64,000 nucleotides of DNA, taken from contig JBBELK010000399.1 of the NCBI GenBank assembly GCA_037783545.1, positions 248,001 through 312,000 of the forward strand. Direction: 5' to 3'. The notes beneath the pieces are model-generated. The model saw only the letters and a list, made by a program, of their open reading frames with translations. It ran no database searches and was not told the DNA's origin. Below are positions 15,963-35,643 of this stretch, piece by piece. The position numbers and the translations under genes were made by a program. Positions within the stretch are counted from its first letter, which is position 1. Each line of letters opens with the position of its first letter. This DNA comes from Henricia sp. BOLD:AAB3569 (lineage: Eukaryota; Echinodermata; Asteroidea; Spinulosida; Echinasteridae).

Positions 15963-17786
15963 CTAAACCATGGTAACATATATCTCAGTTTCCGTTTTTC
16001 TCGTGCCCGTTTCCTCTTCGCCGTTTTCGGAATTCACCGAAGAAAACACCCAACTCCCCGTGGGTAGCAGCTGAGACTCCCGTAAGACCGTCTTATTGGC
16101 CCCGTCGACTCGCGTCTCCCGTCTCGCCACGATGACGTCCGGTGGTAGCGGAGGTTTCTTTGGTAAGTCTACGCTAACAGGGGTCGCGTTGCTGGTAGAT
16201 TTGTACGTCAGCAGCGTCGGTGTGGTGGACTTCTTGCCGAACGATGCAGTTGCCAAGTTGAGGTCCTTGTCACCTCGCACCGTGCCCTTGGTCTGATTGC
16301 GACAACAACACTGGCACAATATGGCGAACGCTATAATTAGGATGATGATGCTCATTCCAGCTTCACACAGAGCAACGATGATGAGCGGACTCAGAGACGA
16401 ACTCGGCTGGTCTGATACGGGAGATGTTTCAGAGACGGTTTCTCGAGGTGACGGTGAGGGTGTTGATGTTCCGTTAGCAATATCCAGGAGGCCGGTTACG
16501 GAACTTGGTGTCGTTGGCACCGGGGTCTCTCTCGGTGACCTCCCGATATTGCCAGGGCGTTGGATAGTTTCGGCGGCATGGCGCGGCCCGGCAGTCGGTG
16601 CTGGCTTAATCCTTCCGCTACTGTCATCAGATGATACACTCCATGCTGCCTGACCGATTACAGGTCTGGGCGCCACACGGTCTCCATTATCACCTGTCCG
16701 CACCGGCTGTCCACGGCGATCAGTCCTGCTGACTGATGAAACTTGACTCTTGACTCGGACTTCCATGTCCACCACATGACGTACACTACTCGGAGAAGAC
16801 ACGCTACAGGAAATCACTAAACCCTGATCCTGGGGTGTGATATGCAGAATAGTTATTCGGGTTCCATCAGGACTGAGGGAGTATCGAGAGGCCGGCAGGT
16901 CAGGTTTAAACGCCCAGGAAGGGCTCCCTAACGTGGCGTCGCCATGTCTCCTCATGCCCTTGCGTGCGGGGCAGGGAAGGTGAGCCTCCAATCCCGAGAC
17001 CAAGTCCACCGTGATACGAGTCCGGTTTTGGACAGGGGATACCTCGATGAAAGGCCCCATTGAACAGCTGCGAAGTGCCTCCCCTGTCGCGCTGTCCTGG
17101 TCCCTAAACTCAATCAAACACGTCACCCTTTCCGTCCTTAATTCCGCTACGTCCATCGGGAAATTCAAATCGTAAGGTTCGCCCTCGTCTGTTTTATTCT
17201 CAAGTAAAATACTTCCTTCAGAATTTTGTAATTTTACTATCGTACCTGGTTGATTGTTGAGTACCGTACACCCGACAGAGACTGGTTGGCCTTGGCTAGC
17301 CGCTAGTGACAACTGTCTTTCCGTAGGATGGATACATCGCAACGACGGTTTCAGGAAGTCCACAACCACTAATTTGGCCGCTTTGGACCGCGACCAACGT
17401 CGGTGGTTCAACTCCCAAAACTCGACGATGTAACAATGGTAAATTCCCGCGTCGTCGGCCTGCACATTGTGGATGAAAAGGTTGTAGTAGAGGTTTCCGT
17501 CGGCGATGCCGTTCTCGACTGTGATCCGGGATAGTTTATCAGGGTCTTTCGTGAGAACCGACTCGCCACTCGTCTGAAAGGTACTCTCTTTCATCCAAGC
17601 CACGGCCTGGTTCTCGGCTAAAGACGATACTTGGCATTCCAGCCGGGCTGTGCGTCCAGCTTGCACAATAGTGTCCTGGGGTTCCATGACAAAGCCTGGA
17701 AGTGGAAGACCATCTGATGTGGTCTGAGCCCACACACAGGTCGCAAAGACCGTCAGAAGTTCGACTGCAGATATCATGACGGACAT
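15963..17786 (-). CDS. Immunoglobulin-superfamily type I membrane protein, single exon, 607 aa
   Basis: Presumed cell-surface receptor or adhesion protein. Residues 1-20 form a signal peptide ending in VWA. Ig domain 1 covers about 33-142, with C51, W64 and ADDAGIYHC (C118). It is followed by two weaker Ig-like units, the second with SLRCIHP and VSVGC, the third with AHLPCP, SWAFKPD and ISCSV. A Ser/Thr/Pro-rich stalk precedes a membrane span at about 468-490, then CQCCC. The 109-residue tail has KKPPLPP (class I SH3-ligand pattern) at about 542-548 and ends EIYVTMV: YVTM (603-606) fits YxxM, and TMV at the terminus fits a class I PDZ ligand. Domain 1 looks closest to nephrin/Kirrel-type V-set domains, but I cannot assign an orthologue. 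No intron interrupts the frame. The start at 17786 gives a clean signal peptide; another ATG lies three codons in. Confidence 0.85.
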   Translation of the reverse strand: MSVMISAVELLTVFATCVWAQTTSDGLPLPGFVMEPQDTIVQAGRTARLECQVSSLAENQAVAWMKESTFQTSGESVLTKDPDKLSRITVENGIADGNLYYNLFIHNVQADDAGIYHCYIVEFWELNHRRWSRSKAAKLVVVDFLKPSLRCIHPTERQLSLAASQGQPVSVGCTVLNNQPGTIVKLQNSEGSILLENKTDEGEPYDLNFPMDVAELRTERVTCLIEFRDQDSATGEALRSCSMGPFIEVSPVQNRTRITVDLVSGLEAHLPCPARKGMRRHGDATLGSPSWAFKPDLPASRYSLSPDGTRITILHITPQDQGLVISCSVSSPSSVRHVVDMEVRVKSQVSSVSRTDRRGQPVRTGDNGDRVAPRPVIGQAAWSVSSDDSSGRIKPAPTAGPRHAAETIQRPGNIGRSPRETPVPTTPSSVTGLLDIANGTSTPSPSPRETVSETSPVSDQPSSSLSPLIIVALCEAGMSIIILIIAFAILCQCCCRNQTKGTVRGDKDLNLATASFGKKSTTPTLLTYKSTSNATPVSVDLPKKPPLPPDVIVARRETRVDGANKTVLRESQLLPTGSWVFSSVNSENGEEETGTRKTETEIYVTMV

Positions 17787-18400
17787 TCTGGCGTCGTTTG
17801 GCCTCAGGATGATGTGTCCATTTGCTAATGTCCGTCTGCTTCGTGTAGGCTATACGCACCAGTCCAATCGCGTTCACTCTATCCGTTGTGCATTTGCGAA
17901 GTTAAATCAGTTGACCATAAATCCGTCCAATAATTACAGCACTCAACAGCTGTCGTTCAATCGTTCAATCGTCAGCATTCGATGCTGTTCACGAGTCCAA
18001 GTTCACCGTGACGTTCAGCGCTTGTACTGTCCACGCCGTAAACGTTGAAGAGTGACCAAATTCCCCAGGTAACTTCTGTATGCATGGAGGAACTGCGTCC
18101 AAGAAATTCCCGGAAAATATGAACTTCTGCAGAACACTGCATGCGGTGGTACTGTGGGCTCTCATAAATACCGGGCCGAGATGTCAGGACGCTCCTTGTA
18201 TAATGACGAGTTACACCCGGGCTTCTTTCCACTATCGTCTCCGGGGACGGACAAATATTGATGAAAAATTTCCCGGTGACTCTACCCCCTTCCTCTCCCT
18301 CTTTCGCTGTGTTCCGTTTTGAGGCACCTCCCACTCTTACTTGACTTGAGAAGCAGTTGCTGTCCCGACGACTGTTTGATGTATGACTCAACGTTTCATT
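17787..18400 (-). promoter_or_regulatory. Presumed 5' leader and promoter of the Ig gene
   Basis: On the minus strand TATTTAT lies at 18170-18164, about 380 bp upstream of the start codon, in a more GC-rich stretch, and could be a TATA-like element. The leader holds out-of-frame ATGs, for example at 17877. An upstream non-coding exon cannot be excluded. Confidence 0.35.
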
Positions 18401-31475: not shown

Positions 31476-32199
31476 TCATCCCTCCTGTGCATTTTTGTTA
31501 CCAAAAAATATGTGTTATTGATATTTATATATACAATGTACAGTACCAGGTCTAAATAAACCATGTATTCATTTCAAACATTGTGTGTACGTGATTTTTA
31601 TTCAGTTTAAAAAAAGTGCAAAATTTATTTGGGTTTTTTGGGGCTTAGCATAAAGATGCCCATCATTTTTGTCCCAGAATGTTTTGCCCATAAACAAGCT
31701 TTATCCATATTTTGCCAAAGTATACAAAATATGGATAAAGCTAGATATATTGTGTTTGATTAATTTTTTGTAGACCCATTGATATTGGGGCACCATAGAG
31801 TTGTGTATGTACTGGAAACCAGTTTACTGTGCACAGAACATTATAGACTGGTTTCCGGACCTCATATTCCAGAAAACGCATACTAATATGTGGTCATGGA
31901 ACCAGTCTAGGAATATTATTGCCCTTTTAGTCAATAGAGGGCGATGTTGCTGGAAAATACGAATGCTTTTTTGCTGCACGTGTCATGCGTGTTGGAACTT
32001 GGAAGAACGGTAAAAGCATGGTAAGGTAAGTTTTTTACCAGATTTTGTTGCTATTTTATAAAAGAAGAAAGATTTATGGCTTTGCGAGATAAATTGGAAG
32101 GTGAAATAGCTTATTTAGAACATGGAGGAAGAATGAGAAAGGCCAAGGGAAAGAGTTGAGTGTAGTTGACATGGTTGACCATGTTGACTAAGTTTTATA

Positions 32200-34771
32200 T
32201 TAAGAGCCAGATTCTGTAACTATGGACCAATTTATACAAGGGGGTGATATATCACCGTTCAGTATTCCATCCAATTTTTTTTTGTGGGTAGATATATCAT
32301 CCAAACTGACAAAAATCACTTTTTTTTTCGGAGAAACTGCTTCGGTTGAAAAATACGGCCGTGTTTAGGGTAGGGGTCCGAAGGGCCTGATAGGTGCCAA
32401 AGTCAAAATCTGGACTTTGTCCTCTGAATATCTTGGTGCGCCCTCAAAAAGCCTCCTTGATCTTATGGTATATAAATATATGGGTGGAGTTGTTTCGAAA
32501 AACGGTGGCGCTTCAAATCGCAACTTTTTGCATTTTAGACCATGTTTGAGGCCCTCCCAGTTCCTGCGCCCTCATAAAGCCTTGCTTGTTCATGTTTATT
32601 TGGACACATGGGGACCTTTTCTTTCCAAAAAAACATAAATGGCAGAGGCTTAGTGAGGGCGCTTGTTAATAGAGGGCGCTTTTTGCCGTAAGAACGTGAT
32701 TTTTGGCAATTTTCGTCAGGCTATATCTCGGTGCGCCCTCTATGGAATTCAGTGAAACTTGTTTTATTGTGTTCCTCTATATCCCCACTATTCATAATAA
32801 AAATAACTAGGAGGCTTTTTGTCTCATTGACCCTTTATGTGCAAATTCATGCACACCAGATCACCACTTTTTGAAAAACAACACTTGGTTCTCGTGCACA
32901 CCTATAGGTGGCAACAATCATTTGGGAAATTTATTTGAGCATTTTCAGAGCATAAAAAGCATAACAATTTATTAAAATCAGCAACAATTTATTGAAATAT
33001 ACCCAAACTTTAAAGAAAATAATGAACAAGGCACCTTTGGTGCTGAAAAAAGGCCTGAATGGCCAGCAAATAAGTGAATTAATGACATGCTTGGTCAAAA
33101 GGTTCTCATGACGGCCCCTAAATTAGAGTTAGCACAGTATACATGTAGTTCATAACCAACTGAGAATGTGGACCGACTTTCAAAACTATAACTGAAGGTT
33201 ATACTTGTCCAAAAGTTCTTGCCAAGGCATTCTCACAACAAAAGGTGACAGTCAACGTGCTTATGCCTACAGAAGCTCCATGAAAAGTTCATGAATGGAG
33301 GTATTTTTAAATTTCTGACAGGCTCTTCTTAGAAAAGAAGTAATGTCCACATCTGCTTCCTGAAAGAAAGGTGCATCACTGAAAATGTTATCCTATTTTA
33401 CTCCAATAAAGATGTATGATTGGGCTGATGTATGATTGTGGCTGCAAAGATTACATTAAATGGGGATACATTGTATGCATTACAGGCTTAGGCTTGGGTT
33501 GGAATGCCACAGAATTCCCAATCATACATCTTTATTGGAGTAAAATAGGATAACATTTTCAGTGATGCACTTTTCTTTCAGGAAGCAGATGTGGACATTA
33601 CTTCTTTTCTAAGAAGAGCCTGTCAGAAATTTAAAAATACCTCCATTCATGAACTTTTCATGGAGAGCTTCTGTAGGCATAAACACGTTGACTGTCACCT
33701 TTTGTTGTGAGAATGCCTTGGCAAGGTCTTTTGGACAAGTATAACCTTCAGTTATAGTGTCTAAAGTCGGTCAACATTTTCAGTTGGTTATGAACTACAT
33801 GTACATGGATGTGCTAACTCTAATTTAGGGGCTGTCGTGAGAACCTTTTGACCAAGCATATCATTCACTTAGTTGCTGGCCATTCAGGCTTTTTTTTCAG
33901 CACCAAAGGTGCCTCGTTCATTGTTTTCTTGAAAGTTTGGGTATATTTCAATAAATTGTTGCTGATTTTAATAAATTGTTATGCTTTTTATGCTCTGAAA
34001 ATGCTCAAATAAATTTCCCAAATGATTGTTTCCACCTATAGGTGTGTACGAGAACCAAGTGTTGTTTTTAAAAAAGTGGTGATCTGGTGTGCATGAATTT
34101 GCACATAAAGGGTCAATGAGACAAAAAGCCTCCTAGTTATTTTTATTATGAATAGTGGGGATATAGAGGAACACAATAAAACAAGTTTCATTGAATTCCA
34201 TAGAGGGCGCACCGAGATATAGCCTGACGAAAATTGCCAAAAATCACGTTCTTACGGCAAAAAGCGCCCTCTATTAACAAGCGCCCTCACTAAGCCTCTG
34301 CCATTTATGTTTTTTTGGGAAGAAAAGGTCCCCATGTGTCCAAATAAACATGAACAAGCAAGGCTTTATGAGGGCGCAGGAACTGGGAGGGCCTCAAACA
34401 TGGTCTAAAATGCAAAAAGTTGCGATTTGAAGCGCCACCTATGGGTGGCGCCCTCAATTAGCCTCGAAAAAAATACCGTTTTTCAGAACAACTCCACCCA
34501 TATATTTATATACCATAAGATCAAGGAGGCTTTTTGAGGGCGCACCAAGATATTCAGAGGACAAAGTCCAGATTTTGACTTTGGCACCTATCAGGCCCTT
34601 CGGACCCCTACCCTAAACACGGCCGTATTTTTCAACCGAAGCAGTTTCTCCGAAAAAAAAAGTGATTTTTGTCAGTTTGGATGATATATCTACCCACAAA
34701 AAAAAATTTGATGGAATACTGAACGGTGATATATCACCCCCTGGTTGAATCTTACAGAATCTGGCTCTTAA
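32200..34771. mobile_element. 2.57-kb foldback element flanked by TTAA
   Basis: TTAA at 32200-32203 and 34768-34771 bracket a giant inverted repeat whose ends are GAGCCAGATTCTGTAA and TTACAGAATCTGGCTC. The arms run to about 33425 and from about 33517, leaving a loop of only ~90 bp. Mismatches are few; one visible indel of about 40 bp lies in the right arm near 34440-34480 (GGTGGCGCCCTCAATTAGCC). GCGCCCTC recurs many times in the arms. There is no transposase ORF. TTAA target preference is that of piggyBac-type elements, so it may be a non-autonomous relative. Confidence 0.9.
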
Positions 34772-34888
34772 TTAGAACTTAGAAGGCTAAAAAGACAAAA
34801 AAGGGATTTTCTGACGTTTACATTGGGAAGTTATCATTTTGTATGTTACACTTTTAGCCCTTTACCAATTTAACCCAATTCGCCGTGG

Positions 34889-34970
34889 TGGATCCGCACA
34901 CACAGACAGCAATGCGTGTTCGAACTGCCCCGTGAACAAAGTGGCGTCGATAACCGTGAAAGGGTTTATT
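34889..34970. mobile_element. Half copy of the TAAACCCTTTCACGG MITE
   Basis: Matches the right half of 24941-25139, ending GTCGATAACCGTGAAAGGGT. Confidence 0.7.
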
Positions 34971-34986
34971 CACACAAAAGCATCTC

Positions 34987-35643
34987 ATCTTGCACTAGCC
35001 CTAAAATTAGGGCTGTGAATTGCTCGCTTTTCAAATCTGACTTATTGAGTCACTAATTCACAGCCCTAATTGAGGGATGTACGACAATACTAAGTCTGAA
35101 ACTGCTCAAATCTGACAAAGTTCTACTAGAAATATCGTCCGAAGCACATCAGACCGAGCACTTTCACATACACAGTTCGATAACTAGCTGCACTGCGCGC
35201 GTGACGTACTTGCCAGCTGGGATAAACACACGGACGTCAATATGAATTATGCATATTGCACAGTTAGCCGGGCTCCTTGACGTCTCATTATCGAGAAGCG
35301 CCAGCATATCAGCTAAGATGGCGTCACCCAAGGAATGCGGCTCAGAACGTTGTCCGAAATTTGTCCAATGTTTCCAGACATCGTAGATGGCCAAATTGAC
35401 GATTCCGTAAGCGTTACTGTTATTTTATGAAACACTAGACTCTCAGGATTACAATGGTGTATGTGAAAGTGCTCGGTCTGATGTGCTTCGGACGATATTT
35501 CTAGTAGAACTTTGTCAGATTTGAGCAGTTTCAGACTTTGTATTGTCGTACATCCCTCAATTAGGGCTGTGAATTAGCGACTCAATAAGTCAGATTTGAA
35601 AAGCGAGCAATTCACAGCCCTAATTTTAGGGCTAATCTTGCAC
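34987..35643. mobile_element. Foldback element with 9-bp target duplication
   Basis: ATCTTGCAC occurs at 34987-34995 and 35635-35643. Between them the ~178-bp arms (34996-35173 and 35457-35634) are inverted, beginning TAGCCCTAAAATTAGGGCTG. The central 283 bp is unique and holds an uninterrupted minus-strand frame (35394-35164, 76 codons). Long terminal repeats with a 9-bp duplication fit Mutator-like elements. Confidence 0.85.

Follow-up and report, generated by a model that had tools for sequence, protein, structure and literature searches.

What is a palindrome of more than 2.5 kb, bounded on both sides by TTAA, doing in the genome of the starfish Henricia, and how have its two arms come to be so much alike? 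It lies on contig 399 within the window, by which we mean the whole 64,000-nucleotide stretch of DNA that was analysed and to which all unlabelled coordinates refer (table 1). The analysis below leads us to regard it as very probably a foldback DNA transposon of the non-autonomous kind, active in recent times and targeting TTAA.

The foldback and its internal hairpin modules

An earlier note on this DNA, made from the sequence alone, described a 2.57-kb foldback whose arms measure about 1.2 kb, with a loop of about 90 bp and TTAA edges followed by an exact inverted terminal repeat, and all of this is borne out. Inverted repeats of ~1.22 and ~1.25 kb make up most of the 2,564 bp, with a spacer of 92 nt between them, and the 16-bp ends are exact inverted repeats with GAG...CTC termini. 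The term "near-perfect" was slightly generous: of the 1,270 columns in the arm-to-arm alignment 1,182 match, 30 are mismatched and 58 contain gaps, so that substitutions come to ~2.5% and there are one gap of 38 bp and smaller ones, and the subterminal stretches just inside the 16-bp ends, the left one longer and the right one shorter, are unlike each other. Arm length and identity, together with the 35 places in the genome at which such ends face each other (below), show that the foldback is not a product of chance.

Table 1. Features of the foldback element and related repeats, in window coordinates
Feature	Positions	Strand	Basis
Target-site TTAA, left	32200-32203		sequence, copy comparison
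Non-autonomous foldback transposon (very probable), 2,564 bp	32204-34767		arm alignment, copy comparison
16-bp terminal inverted repeat, left, GAGCCAGATTCTGTAA	32204-32219	+	inverted-repeat detection, terminus search
Left-specific subterminal stretch, beginning CTATGGACC	32220-32238	+	unlike right end; side-specific in 21/22 copies (20 at one column)
Left arm	32204-33424	+	inverted-repeat detection, arm alignment
GCGCCCTC word, base of hairpin module 1, left arm	32438-32445	+	partner word removed by 38-bp deletion
38-bp deletion junction, left arm	32503-32504	+	arm alignment, copy comparison
Hairpin module 2, left arm, GCGCCCTC...GAGGGCGC	32566-32662	+	right-arm counterpart folded, z -6.2
Hairpin module 3, left arm, GAGGGCGC...GCGCCCTC	32672-32740	+	right-arm counterpart folded, z -2.4
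92-nt spacer, foldback tip; served to orient copies	33425-33516		inverted-repeat detection
Right arm	33517-34767	-	inverted-repeat detection, arm alignment
Hairpin module 3, right arm	34203-34271	-	RNA folding, z -2.4
Hairpin module 2, right arm	34281-34377	-	RNA folding, z -6.2
Hairpin module 1, right arm, complete	34448-34543	-	RNA folding, z -4.7
16-bp terminal inverted repeat, right	34752-34767	-	inverted-repeat detection, terminus search
Target-site TTAA, right	34768-34771		sequence, copy comparison
Repeats matching the joined flanks of copy L016	62226-62377, 29999-30147, 7011-7160, 29788-29907		

Two features that the earlier note had left unexplained can now be accounted for. The gap of about 40 bp between the arms is a 38-bp deletion from the left arm, found only in the window copy; the missing piece has GGT at either end, and the rest of the left arms compared have kept it with minor changes, save that of copy L010, which has a different deletion at the same site (gaps in L016 and L033 start at its right edge). 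The recurring GCGCCCTC words, of which the window copy has 11 in one or the other form (GCGCCCTC/GAGGGCGC), form the stem bases of hairpin modules, of which each arm has three: where an arm is complete, six such words make up three inverted pairs that span 96, 97 and 69 nt. Modules 1 and 2 are duplicates, since their alignment score of 28 was reached by none of 300 interior shuffles, and module 3 showed no relation to either by the same alignment-versus-shuffle test. The right-arm modules were folded as RNA (z scores in table 1), and the folding of module 3 was equalled by six of 200 shuffles.

The GCGCCCTC word is enriched outside the family as well, since it occurs six times in 86,559 flanking bases (mostly the window's own) against 0.57 expected from dinucleotides; of the seven listed occurrences of the word outside the family, five read CAGCGCCCTC on one strand. 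Conservation of the word was also considered: word columns stand at 99.1% versus 98.0% elsewhere, and CpGs at 98.6% in the words (six) versus 95.2% outside them (18), but 25–70% of all 8-mers equal or beat each word, and the signal is suggestive at most.

Dispersed copies and the target site

The genome (740,731,340 bases in 2,104 contigs) yielded at least 43 matches to one arm (40 of 87 candidates scored) and at least 40 to the left 102 bp (40 of 95 scored). A search with terminal sequence, which the earlier note had proposed as a check, was made with the 20-mer TTAAGAGCCAGATTCTGTAA; with no more than one mismatch it found 90 termini against none for the reversed pattern, and with up to three mismatches 154 sites against 11. 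Among the 90 termini, 35 pairs face each other at distances below 8 kb, 26 of them enclosing 2.40–2.85 kb, and the other 20 termini are single. The 20-mer itself includes TTAA, so these termini are no test of the target; for that purpose there are 25 copies picked by arm similarity, independently of the 20-mer. Their flanks vary, and all 25, including an interrupted one, have the same ends and TTAA at both edges. These many copies, constant ends and duplicated target establish that the element transposes.

A palindromic TTAA cannot itself show a duplication, and the 4-bp target duplication is proven by two further copies in which a non-palindromic tetranucleotide is repeated on both sides: TTAT in the copy on C114 and ATAA in that at C611:119154 (both read at their ends only). 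A copy on C2014 has TTAT at its right side, the sole side known. The remaining exceptions (TCAA on C109, TTCA on C1440, and TTGT at the duplicated left end on C476) seem to reflect subsequent decay, or alteration of one side only, at ends that are diverged or single. Boundaries other than TTAA, which the earlier note had held would speak against its reading, thus do exist in a few copies, but they are either matching one-base variants on the two sides or belong to ends that have diverged or are unpaired. That note had also suggested looking for TTAA at empty sites; when the flanks of copy L016 are joined, the sequence runs unbroken across the junction with a single TTAA and matches four uninterrupted related repeats in the window.

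Several copies depart from the standard form. L026 has a single arm, whose left end runs into the spacer at ATTCTGT, a string common to the terminal repeat and the spacer, as would be expected of a microhomology deletion. Shorter relatives have 514, 1,583 and 1,677 bp between their ends (L082, L083 and L062), and on contig 19 a 6.6-kb multimer (L034:1232-7861) has three units and spacers with a 2,003-bp period and its outer TTAA intact. Identity between its units 1 and 2 is 99.75%, and the array represents satellite-like growth out of the palindrome. In addition, L085, L084/L088 and L075 (C8:36922, C8:118930 and C842:647194) share a flank of 12 bases and the element's leftmost 167 bp, beyond which they differ from the arms, and one of them leads into a tandem array; segmental duplication of a single diverged relative probably gave rise to all three.

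Two other foldbacks were encountered. One lies ~225 bp to the right of the element (34996-35635), has 178-nt arms that are 99% identical and TAGCCCTAAAATTAGGGCTGTGAATTG ends, and is flanked on each side by ATCTTGCAC, by eye a 9-bp repeat like those around Mutator-type elements. At least 43 matches to its end occur in the genome (40 of 1,112 candidates scored), and the spacing of the arm pairs varies. The other measures 2,616 bp, has 1.1-kb arms that are 90% identical and ends GGGTCATTCCGTGTGAAATCACC, and is nested in a copy of the family studied here (L021:1732-3601 on into L020:1-1747) with an apparent ATGT duplication, and its end has at least 40 matches (40 of 347 candidates scored).

Histories of the two arms

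Arms were compared in 22 copies, namely 20 full-length copies plus L016 and L031, which both have deletions; the one-armed L026, the multimer L034 and the interrupted L020/L021 were left out. Mean identity between copies is 97.4% for left arms and 97.2% for right arms, with same-side values of up to 99.76%, and mean left-right identity is 96.9% within a copy and 96.5% between copies. The nearest relative is on the same side for 38 of the 44 arms. For the other six, namely L018_R, L023_R, L027_L, L033_R and the two of L031, it is on the opposite side, and twice (in L027 and L033) it is the arm's own partner. By majority 46 columns differ between the sides, of which 15 are subterminal (21 of the 22 copies agree there, 20 at one column) and the others are spread along the arms and at their cut inner ends. 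L031 appears reversed relative to its spacer, either genuinely or as an effect of its truncated 64-bp spacer match.

A maximum-likelihood tree of the 40 arms of the 20 full-length copies, trimmed by 60 bp at the outer and 20 bp at the inner end, gives a similar picture. Within a young subfamily of 28 arms, 13 right arms form a clade (support 91/92) and 14 left arms group with L018_R (87/85; an inner clade of 12 rows has 99/93), and the sides are mixed in the older copies L022, L023, L024, L027, L030 and L033. The side label requires seven changes on the tree, at least three of them forced by the starred branches. In young copies, then, left arms mostly descend from left arms and right arms from right arms, in two separate lines; the complete foldback moves as a unit and its arms then diverge. 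Homogenisation or exchange between arms did occur in the family, now and then along its lineage and not continuously in each copy.

These data bear on other explanations of the palindrome. One is that ongoing gene conversion within each copy holds the arms alike, and signs in its favour are the seven side changes, the clustering of the two L027 arms, the position of the L018 right arm among left arms, and the six arms whose nearest relative is on the other side. In the window copy, on the other hand, the arms are 97.3% identical (2.7% differing, gaps aside), while both have their nearest relatives in L011, at 99.75% for the left and 99.5% for the right; with the great majority of arms nearest a same-side arm and the left and right groups of the young subfamily running in parallel (at moderate support), continuous conversion is very improbable as a general account and is largely refuted for the window copy. 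Of the earlier suggestion of recent insertion or ongoing arm-to-arm correction, it is therefore the first part that stands.

Amplification and read processing are also known to generate spurious long palindromes. An assembly artefact is unlikely because the flanks of the copies differ; 25 copies with common ends and TTAA, and arms that differ in an inherited, side-specific manner, make this explanation virtually untenable. More credible, yet still improbable, is that the element is mainly a source of double-stranded RNA for siRNAs or piRNAs. Its ~1.2-kb inverted arms around a 92-nt spacer and its hairpin modules are what such a source might have; on the other hand, each arm has an inward AATAAA just before the spacer, which could stop transcripts short of the second arm.

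Source of the transposase and relation to known systems

The earlier note stated that no transposase is encoded, and none is recognisable: the longest stop-to-stop frame overlapping the element has 89 amino acids, and a Pfam search of the arm translations (stops as X) gave nothing above the cut-offs (two hits below them, E 0.066 and 0.098). An Rfam search of 31500-35500 gave four weak matches, none at the gathering score, with one inside the element (33002-33066; 17.4 bits versus 70). Outside the element, matches to U5 and mir-5583 at 31687-31792 are also below the gathering score and possibly chance, and a 628-amino acid open frame on the minus strand at 15963-17849 has immunoglobulin-domain matches and is likely an exon of a cell-surface protein. 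With no recognisable coding sequence the element would depend on a transposase supplied in trans, and since the youngest arms are almost identical that transposase was probably active recently.

An autonomous partner was not found: the termini examined on their inner side (including most of the unpaired ones) all enter arm sequence, sometimes for 93–170 bp only, and genome searches at the mismatch limits used brought up none that combines such ends with a transposase. The source may share fewer end bases than those searches required. Candidates were set aside as follows. L088 (C8) has the 167 element-like bp, then tandem repeats, with no right end within 8 kb, and open frames ~6 kb in that presumably resemble a Polinton-type polymerase; L089 (C697) has a 422-bp match and no right end within 8 kb. 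Among the listed sites with two or three mismatches, TTAAGAGGCAGATTCTGCAA, which occurs four times, is the 3' end of a LINE: the frame in L090 reads by eye as a reverse-transcriptase protein, and its end sequence recurs at three further sites. The C181 and C46 sites are without arm sequence and were taken as chance, in line with the 11 reversed-pattern hits noted above. PF20700 has five matches, and the one locus read has neither TTAAGAG nor good TTAA inverted ends.

We picture the history of the element as follows. A transposase acting in trans would recognise the short ends, excise the element and paste it into TTAA, duplicating the four bases; it would most likely be of the Kolobok kind, with Sola3-like or piggyBac-like enzymes as possible alternatives. 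The palindrome may have arisen when repair within an ordinary short-TIR element switched templates, a precursor suggested by the differing stretches beside the two ends, after which the arms would occasionally have been homogenised in ancestral copies and each arm would then have drifted separately. A Galileo-like role in transposase binding is conceivable for the hairpin modules, as Galileo has, in the available text of PMC3688188, several transposase-binding sites inside its long-TIR repeats. A bolder and rather doubtful extension is that the GCGCCCTC-capped hairpins are multiple binding sites that let the transposase of an element with different ends move the foldback, and that the source palindrome is at times re-homogenised, renewing transposition.

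The superfamily is unproven; on end rules we favour a Kolobok-like assignment, with Sola3-like or piggyBac-like ones possible. Sola3 elements have GAG ends and a TTAA target. By that general end rule the element would be like them; no Sola3 transposase was seen here, and the parts of the literature searched contained no text on the Sola3 end sequence. Kolobok elements (Xenopus T2-MITE and KolobokP) combine TTAA with 5'-RR/YY-3' ends in the accessible portion of PMC9587614, where this rule is set against piggyBac, and TTAA with RR ends also appears in that of PMC6004289; our element has both the TTAA duplication (with exceptions) and 5'-RR...YY-3' termini. KolobokP multimers, as far as the available accounts go, likewise keep their outer target sites intact, but KolobokP has long direct repeats where the present repeats are inverted, and a link to a Kolobok transposase was not found.

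That the element is instead a non-autonomous derivative mobilised by a piggyBac transposase is unlikely, though it has several points in common with that group: the TTAA target duplication, at least 116 piggyBac-type matches in the genome (422 candidates), many of them open, and the occasional ATAA and TTAT targets, which speak somewhat for it, as ATAA is a minor site of a piggyBac-type element in the available part of PMC8634313. Against it are the RR/YY ends that PMC9587614, in the part available, contrasts with piggyBac, the absence of AGAGCCAG or its complement at three piggyBac-type loci (whose own ends were not identified), and the lack of a scored match within 10 kb of a listed terminus (lists compared by eye), so that no linked transposase was seen. 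As a separate observation, piggyBac-type frames of ~538 amino acids repeat along single contigs (C1249, C153, C296, C215 and C1014), often ~8–9 kb apart, and are possibly tandem arrays.

We conclude that the copies form a new family of long-TIR/foldback non-autonomous transposons with a less usual TTAA specificity; no TTAA foldback is described in the titles and abstract openings searched, although one may still be in print. A TTAA family with traceable arm lineages and with deletion and multimer forms lets one ask how kilobase palindromes arise, renew themselves and survive in an animal genome, and it would matter more with its transposase identified. Its closest structural parallels are the foldbacks, Drosophila FB, Tetris and Galileo and the sea-urchin elements cited in PMC4079207. 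According to the available text of that paper, its authors assign most foldbacks to the Mutator superfamily, and Tetris makes 8–10-bp duplications, as opposed to the 4 bp here (TTAA in all 25 copies picked by arm similarity, TTAT or ATAA in the two further ones), so the Mutator kind of duplication is not seen. In the other respects covered by the accessible parts of PMC4079207 and PMC3688188 the elements are alike: these foldbacks too have very long inverted repeats, Tetris is apparently without coding sequence, and foldback-type elements, like ours, contain internal repeat modules and give rise to tandem arrays grown from them.
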